From an uncultured Bacteroidota bacterium (GTDB lineage Bacteria > Bacteroidota > Bacteroidia > B-17B0 > Aurantibacillaceae): a DNA stretch of 64,000 nt. A program made the position numbers and the translations under genes. Location of the stretch: positions 1-64,000 of the forward strand of contig CALMVZ010000025.1 of NCBI GenBank assembly GCA_937873155.1. The letters are read 5' to 3'. A model generated the notes under the pieces. The model did no database searches. It was not told the DNA's origin and saw nothing but the letters and a program-made list of their open reading frames with translations. Shown piece by piece: positions 10,601 through 16,162 of the stretch. The stretch's first letter is position 1, and each line of letters begins with the position of its first letter.

Positions 10601-10862
10601 GGGGGTAAAGATACTGTTTCTTTTATTACACCGAATTTTTATCTCCTTGTTTAGGGGCAAAAAATGGGAACCGTACACCGATCATGAAATTGCGCTTGAG
10701 AAATATGCTATCCGCTTTATGGAACTCCGTAAAGGAAGTGAAACAGAAACGAAACCTTTCCTGGAGGATTATCTGATTTTGAGAGATTATATCCTTGACT
10801 ATTGTAGATTAAATCATCTGGATTACAAATCAGCGCGTACAGGATTAGTCTCTATTAAATAA
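10599..10862 (+). CDS. small hypothetical protein
   Basis: Function not recognised. The C-terminal 65 residues look like a real soluble helical domain (EIALEKYAIRFMELRKG and then FLEDYLILRDYILDYCRL). The first 16 residues are hydrophobic but may only mirror the opposite strand; a TTG start at 10647 would avoid overlap with the divergent gene. The 3' end overlaps the convergent HpaII-like gene by 8 bases. It has no clear partner. Confidence 0.5.
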   Translation: MGVKILFLLLHRIFISLFRGKKWEPYTDHEIALEKYAIRFMELRKGSETETKPFLEDYLILRDYILDYCRLNHLDYKSARTGLVSIK

Positions 10863-11928
10863 ATCTAATTTGTAAATTCAAATTAAAGTAATTTGTACCC
10901 TCTTTATTGTATATTTTTCCAAAATTATGTCTTGTACTACTAGCAGTTTCTAATTTTGTATTGTTAAACAAATAGTCTTCAAATTGATTCCGATTATATA
11001 TATGATAACATAAAACCTCACCACTTTCTTTGACTAACAAATACCCGCCAGTTGTATCATATAAACCACTCCATACCTTAGAAGGCATCATCCCTAGAGC
11101 GACATCAGTTAAAAAACGTTTTATTTTATACTCATAAAATGAATGTGAAAACTGAGTGTCGTACTTTAACGGGTTCTTTTTGCTTATTTCGTCCGAAAGG
11201 TTTTTAATTGTTGTATTTTTTGTTGTATAAAAGGAAAGAACAATCTCCCCTAAAATATTAGGCAAAAGACTGTCAATTAAAATCAAATTATTTTTAAATA
11301 TATCTTGTTCAAGAGTTAAATATTTTAACTTACCACCCGATTTGTTTATTGCTTCTAATCTATCTTTTATTTTGCTTTTGGTATCAATGCCATTTATTTT
11401 ATCAATAATAAATTTTGAGGGATTAAAGTTAAGAATTTGGTAAATAAAATTTGTTGTTTTTCCTGCATTTAAAAGAGTAGAATCGCCTCCCAAATGAGAT
11501 TTGATACTAAAACCTAATTCTATTTGTTGGTTAATTCTTAGATCGTGAATAACAATGCGAATATCGGTTTTGCTTGTTGATTTTGCCTTTAATGTTTTGC
11601 AGTTTATGGTCCTCATAAAAGATTCAATTTCGGGGACGCTAAACGCACCTTTTGAATCTTTTATTTTTTGCAATAAAACAGATGCTTGACTTTTGAATTT
11701 TGTGACTGGAATTCGTAGTATTTCTTTATTTGAAGAAATGATTACCAAATCACCGTTAATTTCGTATTCATAATTACCACCACTTTCAATTCTGAGAACT
11801 TTAATAATCGGGTAAAACAATTCTTCTACTTTATTTAAATCAGTATCGCCAGAAAATAATTTGGTATCACCAAGCACCTTAAATAAGGTATATATTTCAC
11901 TCCAATCTCCTTTATTCCCTTTTATCAT
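10855..11928 (-). CDS. HpaII-family type II restriction endonuclease
   Basis: Predicted endonuclease of the HpaII family (known recognition site CCGG). The 357-residue length matches the family. The N-terminus MIKGNKGDWSEIYTLFKVL and the core segment IELGFSIKSHLGG (about residues 136-148), followed by TLLNAG and TNF, are the family's signature. The PD-(D/E)XK-type residues are probably Asp122 and the SIK at 141-143. The start overlaps the stop of the upstream EVE-like gene by 4 bases (ATGA), so it is the last gene of the vsr-C-M-X-R run. Recognition of CCGG is assumed from the family and from its neighbour methyltransferase. Two sequence lines counted by eye gave 22-30% GC, lower than the SpoIIE gene nearby. 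Confidence 0.85.
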   Translation of the reverse strand: MIKGNKGDWSEIYTLFKVLGDTKLFSGDTDLNKVEELFYPIIKVLRIESGGNYEYEINGDLVIISSNKEILRIPVTKFKSQASVLLQKIKDSKGAFSVPEIESFMRTINCKTLKAKSTSKTDIRIVIHDLRINQQIELGFSIKSHLGGDSTLLNAGKTTNFIYQILNFNPSKFIIDKINGIDTKSKIKDRLEAINKSGGKLKYLTLEQDIFKNNLILIDSLLPNILGEIVLSFYTTKNTTIKNLSDEISKKNPLKYDTQFSHSFYEYKIKRFLTDVALGMMPSKVWSGLYDTTGGYLLVKESGEVLCYHIYNRNQFEDYLFNNTKLETASSTRHNFGKIYNKEGTNYFNLNLQIRFI

Positions 11929-12983
11929 ACCTCTTTTGTTAATATAACTTCCCCTAATTCATTTACAGAATAAGATATTAAACTCACAATATTTTCCTTT
12001 TCTACTGTTTGTCTTTTAATCAAGTAATCCATTAATTCAAAGGAAAATCTCGTTGAAATATATACGCCTTCATAACTGTTAACAGGAAGAGATTTACTGG
12101 CTGCAAATGATTTAAGATACCCTATTAATTGAGAAATTTCTTCAATACCTATAGTAGCATCTTTTTTTAATTCAAAAAAACTATAAAAATAAATTTTATC
12201 GGCTTGCTTAAAGGTTGCTAGAATATCACTTCGGAATTGCATGGATTTAAACACTGGGGCTTCAAGAATGAGTTCGTTGAAATTAATCAGCCCTAATGAT
12301 TCTCTAACTTGGTTCGTATTATGTAAAACATTATAAACTATGTATGCATGTAAAACATCTTCAAGAATCGCTTTTCCGCCTATAGCGGGGATTCTGTTAA
12401 ATATAATTGCGGTTGGTCTCGTAACTCTATCAATATCTTCAGCAATAAATTCACTCGCTTCAATTTTTATAAGTTTTCTATTTACATTATTAATTTGCTT
12501 AAAGCTATCCGGTTTAGTTTTTGCGTTGTATTTAAAAAAAAGATGAAGTATTTCTTCAAATTCAGATTCAAATAATTGTCTTATTCCTCTATAAGATGAA
12601 TTGATATCTCTGGAAAGACTTATTAGCGAATCTATTTTACCTGATTCTACAAGGCTATAAAACTCGAATGATGGAACAGGATTTGGAAAATTATATTTTA
12701 TTTTGAAGTCAAATCTAAAAGGATAATATTCGTTCTCGTCATTAAACAAGTTGTCATAACATATATAAGGCGTAGAGGTTACTTCGTAAACCCCTTTAAA
12801 TTGAGAAATTGGATTTTTAACATAAAGTAAAATTAAGTCGCCTGGCCTGACAGCATAAAGGTCCTTAATTTTCCCCCAAATGGTTTGCCTGCTTTCACTA
12901 GGATTTCCAACGTTACCGTAAACTCCTTTTTTGTCCGAAATACTCACAGCATTTTCATTTGTAATGCAAATATGAAATCCCAT
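11925..12983 (-). CDS. EVE-like domain fused to NucS-like PD-(D/E)XK nuclease
   Basis: A 352-residue protein between the methyltransferase and the endonuclease. Residues 1-95 look like an EVE/PUA-type reader domain: a conserved Trp36 in IWGKIK, VRPGDLILLYV (45-55), GVYEVTS (64-70) and YYPFRFDF (86-93). Domains of this type bind modified bases in DNA or RNA. After a helical linker, residues 200-350 have a nuclease pattern: Glu208 in a leading helix, Asp253 in SDILATF, Glu271-Leu-Lys273 in FELKKD and Gln285 in EISQLIGYL. This arrangement resembles NucS/EndoMS and related PD-(D/E)XK enzymes. It may be a modified-base-dependent nuclease, a mismatch nuclease or an accessory of the restriction system. 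Gap to the methyltransferase is 7 bases. Domain calls are by eye. Confidence 0.65.
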   Translation of the reverse strand: MGFHICITNENAVSISDKKGVYGNVGNPSESRQTIWGKIKDLYAVRPGDLILLYVKNPISQFKGVYEVTSTPYICYDNLFNDENEYYPFRFDFKIKYNFPNPVPSFEFYSLVESGKIDSLISLSRDINSSYRGIRQLFESEFEEILHLFFKYNAKTKPDSFKQINNVNRKLIKIEASEFIAEDIDRVTRPTAIIFNRIPAIGGKAILEDVLHAYIVYNVLHNTNQVRESLGLINFNELILEAPVFKSMQFRSDILATFKQADKIYFYSFFELKKDATIGIEEISQLIGYLKSFAASKSLPVNSYEGVYISTRFSFELMDYLIKRQTVEKENIVSLISYSVNELGEVILTKEV

Positions 12984-12990
12984 ATTCTTT

Positions 12991-14223
12991 CTATTTAAGA
13001 AGGCTTAATATTTTTGATGCAGTTGCTTGTATTGCAGGAACAGCAACAGAATTCCCAAATTGTTTATAGGCAGAGGCATCAGCAACAACAATTTTAAAAT
13101 CGTCAGGAAACCCCTGAAGCCTTGCCCATTCACGAGGCGTCATTTTTCGAACCCCTTCTCTATTTACCATTCCTTTGATTTTCGTTTCAGGAGTAAAATT
13201 TGTTATACGATGATCGAAAACCAAATTTCTTTCTCTACCCATTCCTCCACATACAACTGCATTCGCTGTGCCATCATCAGGAATCATTTCATAACCAAAA
13301 CCATTACCTTTATTAGCGTGTCTTGCTTTGTGATCTTTTAAAGTTTTAAGATATTGAGTCGATAAATAATATCTGGTTGCAACAGGATCCTTTTCTCGTA
13401 TATCAAGAAATATCTTTTTTTCCTTTATTGGTTTAGGATAAGTAAAACCAGTAATTTTTAAATCCTTTCTGAATCCAACAATAAAAATACGCTCTCTGTT
13501 TTGCGGTACACCAAAATCTTTAGCATTTAATATTTGGGGTTCAGGTACAAAATAACCTAAGTCATTTCGCAGGACGCTCAAAATTGTTTTAAGTGTATTC
13601 CCTTTATCATGATTCCGTAAACCTTTGACGTTTTCTAAAAAAATTGCCTTAGGCTTATGTTTCTTAATTATTTCAGCAACATCGAAAAATAAAGTCCCTC
13701 TTGTATCTTTAAAACCAGCACGTTTTCCGGCTATTGAAAATGCCTGACACGGAAAGCCTGCACATAAAACATCAAACCCTTTTGGAATAGAATCTTTCGT
13801 TTCCTTTTGGGTTATATCTCCAAATGGAACTTCTCCAAAATTAGCTCGGTAAGTTTTTTGCGCTTCTCTGTCCCACTCACTAGTGAAGACACATTTGCCG
13901 CCAAGTTTTTGCATAGCCAGCCTAAAACCGCCTATCCCGGCAAATAAGTCTATAAACTCAAATTTTGGACTTAAGGGTGGAGGAAAAGGAATGTCCCATT
14001 TAATATCAAGATCATATTGATAATAATCTTCTGCAGCGATTGTTTCTGTTAAACCATTTAAGTAATTCTTAAGTGGTTTCTTACTAAAATTTTTTTCTTC
14101 AGTATCAGATTGAAGAAAGTGAGTGATTTCAGCAAGGTGATTATCACCTTTGTTTGCTTTAGGATCGAAAAGCTTTTCGCTTATCTTACTAAATTTAATT
14201 TTTTTTGTTTTTAATTTTTTCAT
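12991..14223 (-). CDS. DNA cytosine-5 methyltransferase
   Basis: A 410-residue C5-cytosine methyltransferase, the protective half of the type II system. In order: an extra N-terminal region of about 88 residues; motif I DLFAGIGGFR (92-101); motif IV with the catalytic Cys159 in GFPCQAFS; motif VI ENV (197-199); motif VIII QNRERIFIVG (241-250); a target recognition region of about 100 residues containing GNGFGY and GGMGRERNLV; and motif X QFGNSVAVP. With the HpaII-like enzyme beside it, the target is probably CCGG with methylation of the inner or outer C. Its start overlaps the C-protein stop by 4 bases. Confidence 0.93.
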   Translation of the reverse strand: MKKLKTKKIKFSKISEKLFDPKANKGDNHLAEITHFLQSDTEEKNFSKKPLKNYLNGLTETIAAEDYYQYDLDIKWDIPFPPPLSPKFEFIDLFAGIGGFRLAMQKLGGKCVFTSEWDREAQKTYRANFGEVPFGDITQKETKDSIPKGFDVLCAGFPCQAFSIAGKRAGFKDTRGTLFFDVAEIIKKHKPKAIFLENVKGLRNHDKGNTLKTILSVLRNDLGYFVPEPQILNAKDFGVPQNRERIFIVGFRKDLKITGFTYPKPIKEKKIFLDIREKDPVATRYYLSTQYLKTLKDHKARHANKGNGFGYEMIPDDGTANAVVCGGMGRERNLVFDHRITNFTPETKIKGMVNREGVRKMTPREWARLQGFPDDFKIVVADASAYKQFGNSVAVPAIQATASKILSLLK

Positions 14224-14444
14224 ACTTTTTTATTTTTAAAGTCCCTAAAAAAGGTTGAAAAATCGGTGTTAAGCGCCTTAATGATTTTTTCTAAACTTTT
14301 AATCGAAATATTTTTTCGACCGTTCTCTACATGGTTCATGTATGTTCTGTCTACATCAGCTTCCCATGCAAGTTGCTCTTGAGTTAAACTTTTTTGAATT
14401 CGAATCTCTTTGATTCTAAGTCCGATTTTTTTCTCCATAGACAT
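14220..14444 (-). CDS. controller (C) protein, XRE-type HTH
   Basis: A 74-residue XRE helix-turn-helix protein (GLRIKEIRIQKSLTQEQLA, then DRTYMNHVENGRKNIS), of the size and sequence of controller proteins of type II restriction-modification systems. These bind an operator before their own gene and time expression of methyltransferase and endonuclease. I chose the ATG at 14444; a reading from 14477 would begin inside the 36-bp dyad at 14461-14496, which is better read as its operator. The stop overlaps the methyltransferase start (ATGA), so C, M, X and R appear to form one operon. Confidence 0.82.
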   Translation of the reverse strand: MSMEKKIGLRIKEIRIQKSLTQEQLAWEADVDRTYMNHVENGRKNISIKSLEKIIKALNTDFSTFFRDFKNKKV

Positions 14445-14460
14445 AATGTAAAATTGGAAA

Positions 14461-14496
14461 ACGTGACCTATAAGCACATTTGCTTTTAAGTCACGT
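14461..14496 (-). promoter_or_regulatory. C-protein operator (C-box) candidate
   Basis: A 36-bp inverted repeat with perfect 7-base outer arms ACGTGAC/GTCACGT; 15 of 18 base pairs match overall. Read on each strand, the arms give GTGACCTATAAG and GTGACTTAAAAG, close to known C-box half sites (GAC-TAT-like). It ends 17 bases before the chosen C-gene ATG. The dyad is seen directly; binding by the C protein is inferred. Confidence 0.7.
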
Positions 14497-14500
14497 ATTG

Positions 14501-14513
14501 CTACAAATTGTAG
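14501..14513. repeat. perfect 13-bp palindrome between vsr and C gene
   Basis: CTACAAATTGTAG has perfect 6-base arms around a central A. It lies 4 bases from the C-box dyad and 8 bases from the vsr stop. There is no T tract, so it is not a usual terminator; it may be a second regulatory site. Confidence 0.4.
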
Positions 14514-14521
14514 TAAAGTTC

Positions 14522-14935
14522 TTAACGAAGGGAGTTAAGAAGAGAGGATAAGGTTTTTTCAACCTTTTTAGGTTTAAGCTGGCAGGTCCAAATATTAATT
14601 ACTCTCCAGCCTTCTTTTTTAAGGTTTGAACTTTTCTTTTTATCGTTGGCAACATTGCCAATTATTTTTTTCAGCCACCATTCCGTCTTTGTTTTGGGAA
14701 TAGTCGCGTATTTACAGTTTTTATGTCCGTGCCAAAAACAACCATGAACAAAAATTACAGTTTTATATTTGGGTAAAATAATATCCGGTTTACCCGGGAG
14801 TTTCGCATCATGCAAACGAAACCGAAATCCTTTTGAATGTAAAAATTTACGTACTAAAATCTCAGGCTTTGTGTTTTTGCCTTTGATCTGACTCATATTA
14901 TAACTCCTTATTTCTTTAGAGTGAACATCTGCCAT
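14522..14935 (-). CDS. vsr: very short patch repair endonuclease (Vsr)
   Basis: A 137-residue Vsr-family endonuclease. It nicks beside T:G mismatches that arise when 5-methylcytosine deaminates at a methyltransferase target, so it is the natural companion of the C5 methyltransferase. Visible residues: Asp51 in GKPDII (the metal-binding catalytic Asp), His64, Cys66, His69, His71 and Cys74 in the FVHGCFWHGHKNC zinc-binding stretch, and WW near 86-87. Length is normal. It is upstream of the C gene on the same strand, separated by 77 bases holding the C-box, so it probably has its own promoter. Confidence 0.93.
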   Translation of the reverse strand: MADVHSKEIRSYNMSQIKGKNTKPEILVRKFLHSKGFRFRLHDAKLPGKPDIILPKYKTVIFVHGCFWHGHKNCKYATIPKTKTEWWLKKIIGNVANDKKKSSNLKKEGWRVINIWTCQLKPKKVEKTLSSLLNSLR

Positions 14936-15047
14936 CCTGCAAATATAATGGAATTCCAGAAGCGTATAAATTAAAATTTACTGAATTACAATAAGTTACA
15001 ACTAAAATATTTAAATAAATTAACAAAAATGTTTACATAAAATTGTT

Positions 15048-15055
15048 TATATTTG
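15048..15055 (+). promoter_or_regulatory. candidate -7 element for the antitoxin-toxin pair
   Basis: TATATTTG matches the TAnnTTTG consensus and ends 11 bases before the ATG at 15067. No exact TTTG -33 box was found. It argues against a start at 15043, which would lie upstream of the element. Confidence 0.4.
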
Positions 15056-15066
15056 AGTATAAATAC

Positions 15067-15528
15067 ATGAAAACCAATATATCCATAATTAAAGGCGTCC
15101 ACCCGGGTTTTATACTAGCGCGTGAATTAAAGAAGAAGAAAATTGCTAAAAGCAGATTTGCTATCGCGCTTAATGAGTATCCGCAAACACTGGTTTCAAT
15201 TACAAAAGGCAAACGCAATATGAATGCAGCGCTTTCCCTTAAGATTGAAAAAGCATTGGATATGGAAGAAGGTTTTTTTATGGTGTTACAGGCGTATTAC
15301 GAAATAGAACGCGAAAAAAAGAAACAGAACACAGCGCATCCCGATCTTTCTAAAATAAGGAAGATACTTTTCTGGGATACGTCGTTTGATAAGATAGATT
15401 GGAAAAAACATAAACGCAGCATCATTAAACGCGTTTTTGAAAGAGGGAATGAAGAAGAAAAAAATGAAATAAAAAAATTCTACGGAGAAGAGCTCATAAA
15501 TTCTGTATTGAAAAAAGATGACAGATAA
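15067..15528 (+). CDS. HTH antitoxin (HigA-like, DUF6922-like tail)
   Basis: A 153-residue DNA-binding protein predicted to be the antitoxin of the toxin gene it overlaps. The N-terminal half is a HigA-like XRE fold (HPGFILARELKKK, then ALNEYPQTLVSITKGKR). The C-terminal third has the conserved run FWDTSFDKIDW followed by a helix with RRVFERGNEEE-like text, as in the DUF6922 family that often accompanies AbiEii nucleotidyltransferases. The first possible ATG is at 15043, but the start at 15067 fits the HTH alignment and the -7 element. The last 11 bases overlap the toxin start. Confidence 0.75.
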   Translation: MKTNISIIKGVHPGFILARELKKKKIAKSRFAIALNEYPQTLVSITKGKRNMNAALSLKIEKALDMEEGFFMVLQAYYEIEREKKKQNTAHPDLSKIRKILFWDTSFDKIDWKKHKRSIIKRVFERGNEEEKNEIKKFYGEELINSVLKKDDR

Positions 15529-16162
15529 TTTATATTACAATACAGTCACTCCTTATTTACTAAAGGTGCTTAAACAATTAATAGCCGCAAAGGAATTTGA
15601 AAAATTCAGATTAGTAGGCGGAACATCTTTAAGTTTACAAATAGGTCACCGTTTGTCGGTAGATATAGATCTGTTTACGGCTGCGCCTCACGGCACAATT
15701 GATTTTAAAACGATAGATAACTATTTATCTGCCAATTTTCCTTATATACAAACAAGTAAAGTAGAAGAAATAGGTTTCGGCAGATCTTATTTCGTTGGTG
15801 AAAGTGCAGAGCAAAGCGTGAAGCTCGATGTTTTTTACACGGAAGATTATATTACTCCTGTTATAGAAACAGATGGCATAAGATTAGCAAGCGCAGAAGA
15901 TATTATTGCCATGAAACTGGATGTGATCAACCGCGGTGGCCGAAAAAAAGATTTTTGGGACATACATGAATTAATACCTGACTATTCTTTTAAGACCATG
16001 TTAAGTCTTCACGGAAAGAAATATCCTTGTGGTCATGACGCCAAACATATAAAAAAGCAATTTTCAAATTTTGAAGTTGCAGATGAAGAAGCAGATCCTG
16101 AATGTCTGCGCGGAAAGATCTGGGAAATAATTAAATTGGATATGATCGATTTCGCAAAATAA
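15518..16162 (+). CDS. AbiEii/AbiGii-family nucleotidyltransferase toxin
   Basis: A 214-residue nucleotidyltransferase of the AbiEii/AbiGii toxin family. The core is LVGGTSLSLQIGHRLSVDIDLFT (about residues 27-49 in two pieces: GGTS and DIDLF), the GS-x-DxD motif of the polymerase-beta fold. A later Lys-containing helix IIAMKLDVINRGGRKKDFWD also matches. Family members add nucleotides to tRNA or other targets and cause abortive infection or growth arrest, held back by the antitoxin. It overlaps the antitoxin gene by 11 bases. It ends 12 bases from the convergent truncated TPR gene. Confidence 0.82.
   Translation: MTDNLYYNTVTPYLLKVLKQLIAAKEFEKFRLVGGTSLSLQIGHRLSVDIDLFTAAPHGTIDFKTIDNYLSANFPYIQTSKVEEIGFGRSYFVGESAEQSVKLDVFYTEDYITPVIETDGIRLASAEDIIAMKLDVINRGGRKKDFWDIHELIPDYSFKTMLSLHGKKYPCGHDAKHIKKQFSNFEVADEEADPECLRGKIWEIIKLDMIDFAK

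Follow-up and report, generated by a model that had tools for sequence, protein, structure and literature searches.

A putative EVE-nuclease gene between the methyltransferase and endonuclease genes of an HpaII-kind restriction-modification operon in Bacteroidota

A five-gene cassette on the minus strand

The window analysed here is a stretch of 64,000 nucleotides from an uncultured Bacteroidota bacterium (GenBank assembly GCA_937873155.1, contig CALMVZ010000025.1, positions 1 to 64,000). On its minus strand, at 10855-14935, five open reading frames (ORFs) follow one another in the order vsr, C, M, X and R, with ATGA overlaps at C/M and at X/R and a gap of 7 bases from M to X. A preliminary description of the window, made from the letters alone, had named this layout and had assigned an HpaII-family enzyme (R), a C5 methyltransferase (M), a Vsr protein and a C protein to it; both the layout and the four assignments were recovered, with the scores given in the list below. 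The parts of the cassette are of known kinds. The gene of interest is X, which stands between M and R and may encode a nuclease that senses modified DNA. The features are as follows:

11925..12983, minus strand: X, EVE + putative PD-(D/E)XK-type protein of 352 amino acids.
12534..12983, minus strand: EVE domain of X, approximately residues 1-150 (PF01878 24.6 bits, slightly above the cut-off of 23).
11949..12383, minus strand: putative PD-(D/E)XK-type nuclease domain of X, approximately residues 201-345 (structural matches, invariant residues).
10855..11928, minus strand: R, HpaII-family type II restriction endonuclease of 357 amino acids (PF09561 468 bits, cut-off 25, positions 1-359 of 359; ATGA overlap with X).
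12991..14223, minus strand: M, C5-cytosine DNA methyltransferase of 410 amino acids (PF00145 348 bits, TIGR00675 323 bits; ATGA overlap with C).
14220..14477, minus strand: C, helix-turn-helix (HTH) control protein, 85 amino acids as ORF (PF01381, HTH_3, 47.8 bits; PADLOC Control_protein E 3e-16).
14522..14935, minus strand: vsr, Vsr-type T:G mismatch nicking endonuclease of 137 amino acids (TIGR00632 148 bits, cut-off 97.85; PF03852 117 bits).
14458..14499, minus strand: C-box-like inverted repeat, candidate operator of C-M-X-R (two 19-nucleotide arms, 84% complementary, 4 nucleotides apart).

M and R lie on the same strand, one gene (X) apart, and by its gene families the locus is an HpaII-kind type II restriction-modification operon. 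It resembles HpaII-type systems (a PF09561 R with a C5 M) in the families of R and M and in the place of M before R; several of these systems also have a Vsr gene nearby, and some have a C protein. It differs from them in the 352-amino-acid EVE and putative nuclease gene that lies between M and R.

The operon is probably controlled by its C protein, the translation of which probably begins at an inner ATG (14444 or 14438). The inverted repeat stands directly before these inner ATGs, and we take it to resemble known C-boxes. Because the repeat precedes C, and because C matches the PADLOC control proteins, C-M-X-R may form one C-controlled operon. A comparable element (GTGACTTATAG...CTTATAGTCCAC) precedes C in L015, and no such inverted repeat was seen before C in L041 or L100.

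Recurrence of X between M and R

A scan of a genome contig collection with X as the query, which reaches only close relatives, returned three: one in Algoriphagus formosus, one in a Saprospiraceae metagenome-assembled genome and one in Robertkochia marina. The vicinity of HpaII-like enzymes, where the preliminary description had suggested looking for homologues of X, is where all three were found: each lies between an HpaII-like M and its R, directly before R or overlapping it. Together with the window, X is thus placed between M and R in four of four close members, and the other three come from three Bacteroidota families.

A more distant relative, here called X', was found in G1439, a genome of the family to which the Saprospiraceae genome belongs. 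It sits on a contig of 3,274 bases that holds three genes, namely M, X' and R. This M is a CcrM-like N6_N4 methyltransferase (341 bits, E 6e-102, below the model's equivalog cut-off of 830; CcrM in the PDB, E 2e-79), and this R belongs to the HpyAIV family of restriction enzymes (245 bits, cut-off 160). Both HpyAIV and CcrM act on GANTC. X and X' are 25% identical across most of their length, with a BLASTP value of 3e-16 for the single comparison.

In all five loci found, X or X' stands between M and R, and the same kind of gene occupies the M-R slot of two systems that differ in both the class of M and the family of R. Since the slot recurs in all three genomes of the scan and also in an unrelated CcrM/HpyAIV-like system, X is linked to its restriction system; it is rare, yet it is no chance neighbour. 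That X might lie here by mere accident, a possibility that the preliminary description had raised against its own reading, can be set aside.

The same description had placed X outside the usual HpaII system, which agrees with the genomes examined. PF09561 was matched in 11 of 395 sampled genomes of the phylum (one match under cut-off) and, within the family of the Algoriphagus genome, in 9 of 295 genomes; excluding the window and the Algoriphagus genome, 18 other genomes carry an HpaII-family R. X was not found in any of them, whether searched as whole genomes (10 of 10) or as fetched flanks (8 of 8, one of which ends at a contig end). M lies directly before R in nine of these genomes, a different gene stands between the two in three (L055, L058 and L059), and no M was seen in the remaining six (lone R, fragments or contig end). 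M is also directly before R in plasmids of Acinetobacter and Lactococcus (three opened of seven plasmid records with a relative of R), and six unannotated phage records hold a relative of R. Searches of plasmids, phages and viral contigs with X, X' and the five-row alignment (X also as a four-row alignment) returned no relative, and plasmids likewise gave no relative of the G1439 R.

These arrangements bear on whether X works with R or governs it. In that case the EVE domain of X would read the state of the DNA, and X would assist R, direct it or hold it back; it might, for instance, nick the second strand, or act as a brake and so protect host DNA that is partly methylated. Such a tie would agree with the ATGA overlap of X and R, with the fixed place of X directly before R, and with the fact that carriers of X keep an R (four of four close members do, and the fifth has one from a different family). 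However, R seems not to need X, as X is absent from nine HpaII systems in which M immediately precedes R, and R stands without X in all 18 other genomes as examined. In addition, X' adjoins an R of another family. We therefore regard a partnership of this kind as unlikely.

Domains and proposed role of X

The assignment of the N-terminal part of X to the EVE domain is supported by sequence, and proteins of known structure match it. PH1033 in the PDB was matched with E 4e-7 by a four-relative profile and with 7e-10 by a five-relative profile, and VIA-align placed THYN1, PH1033 and VcaM4I on the EVE part with Z 5.1-6.3. For the C-terminus, no Pfam or NCBIfam family scored above cut-off. Four residues, E208, D253, E271 and K273, are invariant in the alignment columns of all five X relatives, a pattern that, as we read the motif, fits a PD-(D/E)XK site.

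An AlphaFold model of X was built from four sequences. With this low-confidence model, Foldseek gave NucS of Pyrococcus abyssi as the top match (2vld, prob 0.97, E 7e-3), followed by MspJI, with EndoMS at rank 5. VIA-align matched the C-terminal part to EndoMS/NucS with Z 6.6 (5gkj), 6.0 (2vld) and 5.6, and also to MspJI, AspBHI and PaqCI; restriction or repair nucleases make up 12 of the 50 VIA-align rows listed for X.

X had been called EVE/NucS-like in the preliminary description. The EVE half of this label holds, and the nuclease domain of NucS/EndoMS is indeed among the best structural matches of the C-terminus of the low-confidence model, but X has no NucS_C (PF01939) match by sequence and its N-terminal part is EVE, for which reasons X was rejected as NucS proper. 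NucS_C had no match in the genome of the window, versus matches in 7 of 14 control genomes.

Proteins with the same EVE-PD(D/E)XK make-up as X are predicted to be type IV, modification-dependent enzymes in section 9 of Bell, Wolf and Koonin 2020 (PMC7641849); in the main text of that paper, the terms 'HpaII', 'NucS' and 'Vsr' are absent and 'type II' appears in two reference titles only. VcaM4I, an EVE-HNH protein, flips 5-methylcytosine (5mC) or 5-hydroxymethylcytosine into a pocket and restricts such DNA, according to an excerpt of PMC7897488. Like X, it has an N-terminal EVE sensor followed by a nuclease, and VIA-align gives Z 5.1 for it over residues 5-164; its nuclease is HNH where X has the putative PD-(D/E)XK domain. 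An excerpt of PMC12707154 reports BREX clusters that contain type IV enzyme genes, as well as defence islands where types I and IV are neighbours. What these arrangements have in common with the cassette would be a modification-dependent enzyme that travels with a modification-protected system; in them, however, the pairing is between large systems, whereas in the window a single gene lies within the M-R pair of a type II system. For an EVE nuclease in such a position, no description was found in the open-licence literature, among the matches listed.

Phages that alter their bases escape type II restriction and are countered in turn by free-standing type IV enzymes. We propose, with about an even chance of being right, that X is an operon-borne modification-sensing restriction nuclease that lies between M and R and backs up R. 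M would mark the host sites, and R would cut unmarked DNA. X, which would be made together with R via the ATGA overlap and after M, would act against phage DNA with base alterations that block cutting by R: the EVE domain would flip out and read the altered base, and the PD-(D/E)XK domain would cut. X would also have to spare the host's own 5mC sites, because M makes them. The proposal draws on the gene order, the families, the recurring M-X-R slot, the selection on X (described below) and the conserved catalytic-type residues. If it is true, one type II operon unit covers both unmarked DNA and phage DNA with altered bases, and the question arises how X spares the methylated sites of its host.

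Several points weigh against this proposal. The need to spare host 5mC is its weak point, and VcaM4I, an EVE nuclease, binds 5mC, which is the very mark made by M (excerpt of PMC7897488). The structural evidence is also open to objection. The model of X is weak, with a mean pLDDT (predicted local distance difference test) of 55, and 7e-3 is the best E that Foldseek returned with it; VIA-align Z values of 5-7 are within the range of chance arrangements, and a Z below 8 can reflect a common arrangement. RNA polymerase subunit E takes 11 of the 50 VIA-align rows, including ranks 1-3, and when the C-terminal domain was modelled alone, the top matches contained no nuclease family (ATP synthase subunits, Argonautes and others). 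The EVE match of X' reaches 20.1 bits, below the Pfam cut-off of 23. Furthermore, X is rare, being present in one of 395 sampled genomes of the phylum (the window's own). Finally, CCGG is not avoided in a 448-kb sample of the genome (observed/expected 1.13), and composition thus lends no support to CCGG recognition; the palindromes that stand out in this sample are GATC (1.52) and CTAG (0.30).

The preliminary description had offered two functions for the cassette, either restriction of both unmodified and modified DNA or repair of methylation damage in two ways. In the second case, X would be a mismatch endonuclease that acts, like Vsr, on T:G pairs arising from deaminated 5mC in CCGG. This would suit a cassette in which M is a C5 methyltransferase, a Vsr gene adjoins the operon and NucS/EndoMS is among the best structural matches of the C-terminus of X. 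On the other hand, the missing NucS_C match and the EVE N-terminus do not fit a mismatch enzyme of this kind, and X' accompanies a CcrM-like adenine (N6) methyltransferase, so that its own M gives rise to no deaminated 5mC. Moreover, a Vsr match is found in all four close genomes that carry X and in nine of the ten searched HpaII genomes that lack X (one of the nine with an internal stop). X does not replace Vsr, because a Vsr match is present regardless of X (13 of 14 genomes searched), and replacement was rejected as the main explanation. Because X' sits with an adenine M, and because Vsr occurs with or without X, the repair role is weakened and we think it improbable, and restriction of modified DNA appears the likelier of the two functions.

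Distribution, evolution and neighbouring genes

Searches within families gave a similarly sparse distribution of X. It was present in 1 of 87 sampled genomes of the window's own family (the window's genome), in 1 of 397 genomes from the family that includes the Robertkochia genome (the Robertkochia genome itself) and in 2 of 378 genomes of the family of the Saprospiraceae genome (that genome and G1439). In the 397-genome search, five matches at E 0.0015-0.008 were dropped as noise, as they were short and all but one contained internal stops. The four X carriers do not group on the trees of R and M: at least three changes are required by the R tree, where starred branches force two, and four by the M tree. 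The R tree holds 18 rows and excludes L038 as well as the fragmentary or truncated R of L042, L043 and L060, and the M tree holds the 16 loci with M. Within the genus of the window, pieces of the cassette's flanks were found (in opposite order in L101), but no clean empty site.

X has evolved under purifying selection, with nonsynonymous differences (pN) of 0.18-0.31 while synonymous differences (pS) are 0.72-0.82, near saturation. It is more conserved than R in six of six pairs and less conserved than M in four of six. These data bear on whether X could be a passenger in the operon, selfish or neutral, that plays no part in restriction, or a protein whose catalytic domain acts on RNA or another substrate. 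A gene as rare and scattered as X could be a passenger, and PUA-superfamily domains, according to part of the literature, were first tied to RNA. The purifying selection, and the occupation of the same slot in five loci and two kinds of system, argue against this, and we consider the passenger explanation improbable.

The presumed target-recognition region of M is nearly identical across 16 aligned M, with and without X. It follows that X is not coupled to a change of methylation site, and the idea that X is tied to a different methylation target was rejected.

A broader idea, which we hold tentatively and at somewhat less than an even chance, is that the M-R gap of type II systems is a plug-in site. 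One family of EVE-nuclease genes would enter unrelated systems (HpaII-like cytosine and CcrM/HpyAIV-like adenine) and give self-contained two-tier cassettes, in which R cuts unmarked DNA and X cuts base-altered phage DNA; in other HpaII systems, the same gap would be used by further small genes whose function is unknown. The presence of X' beside a CcrM-like adenine methyltransferase hints that such pairings may be general in design rather than peculiar to a single operon.

Other genes were observed in or near the M-R gap. A second gene family (L059:5325-6005, L058:8100-8762 and L016:4306-4992) encodes proteins of 220-228 amino acids with 34-46% mutual identity and no match in Pfam, NCBIfam or PADLOC. 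Its members lie between M and R in L059 and L058, and directly before M in the X-bearing system of Robertkochia (L016). A further HpaII system, in which R contains one internal stop, has a gene for 108 amino acids in its M-R gap (L055:5669-5995), and no family matches this gene above cut-off. Directly after R, a 588-amino-acid ATPase (AAA_21/AAA_15) was seen at L016:8201-9967 and at L057:4225-5991; the two copies are 52% identical, and one belongs to an HpaII system with X and the other to one without.

Related pieces of the cassette also occur elsewhere. A locus of the same genus as the window, L100:4849-7448, carries Vsr and an M that is 71% identical to the window's M, together with an HNH protein and a C protein. 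No HpaII R was found in its 13-kb stretch and no X in its genome, and the R of this locus may have been replaced. Lone HpaII-family R genes with no adjoining M were seen in L036, in L037 and in the Bacteroides finegoldii plasmid NZ_OY725969.1 (L089), at approximately 30% identity to the window's R. Their neighbourhoods look alike, with a YigZ-like gene, R, a nitroreductase and gcvP (annotated in L089 and judged by eye in the other two).

On the other side of the cassette, at 15043-16162 of the window, a DUF6922 protein and a nucleotidyltransferase of the AbiEii type are encoded, and this DNA has matches in other genomes of the same genus. Given these neighbours, the place where the cassette sits may be a small defence island.

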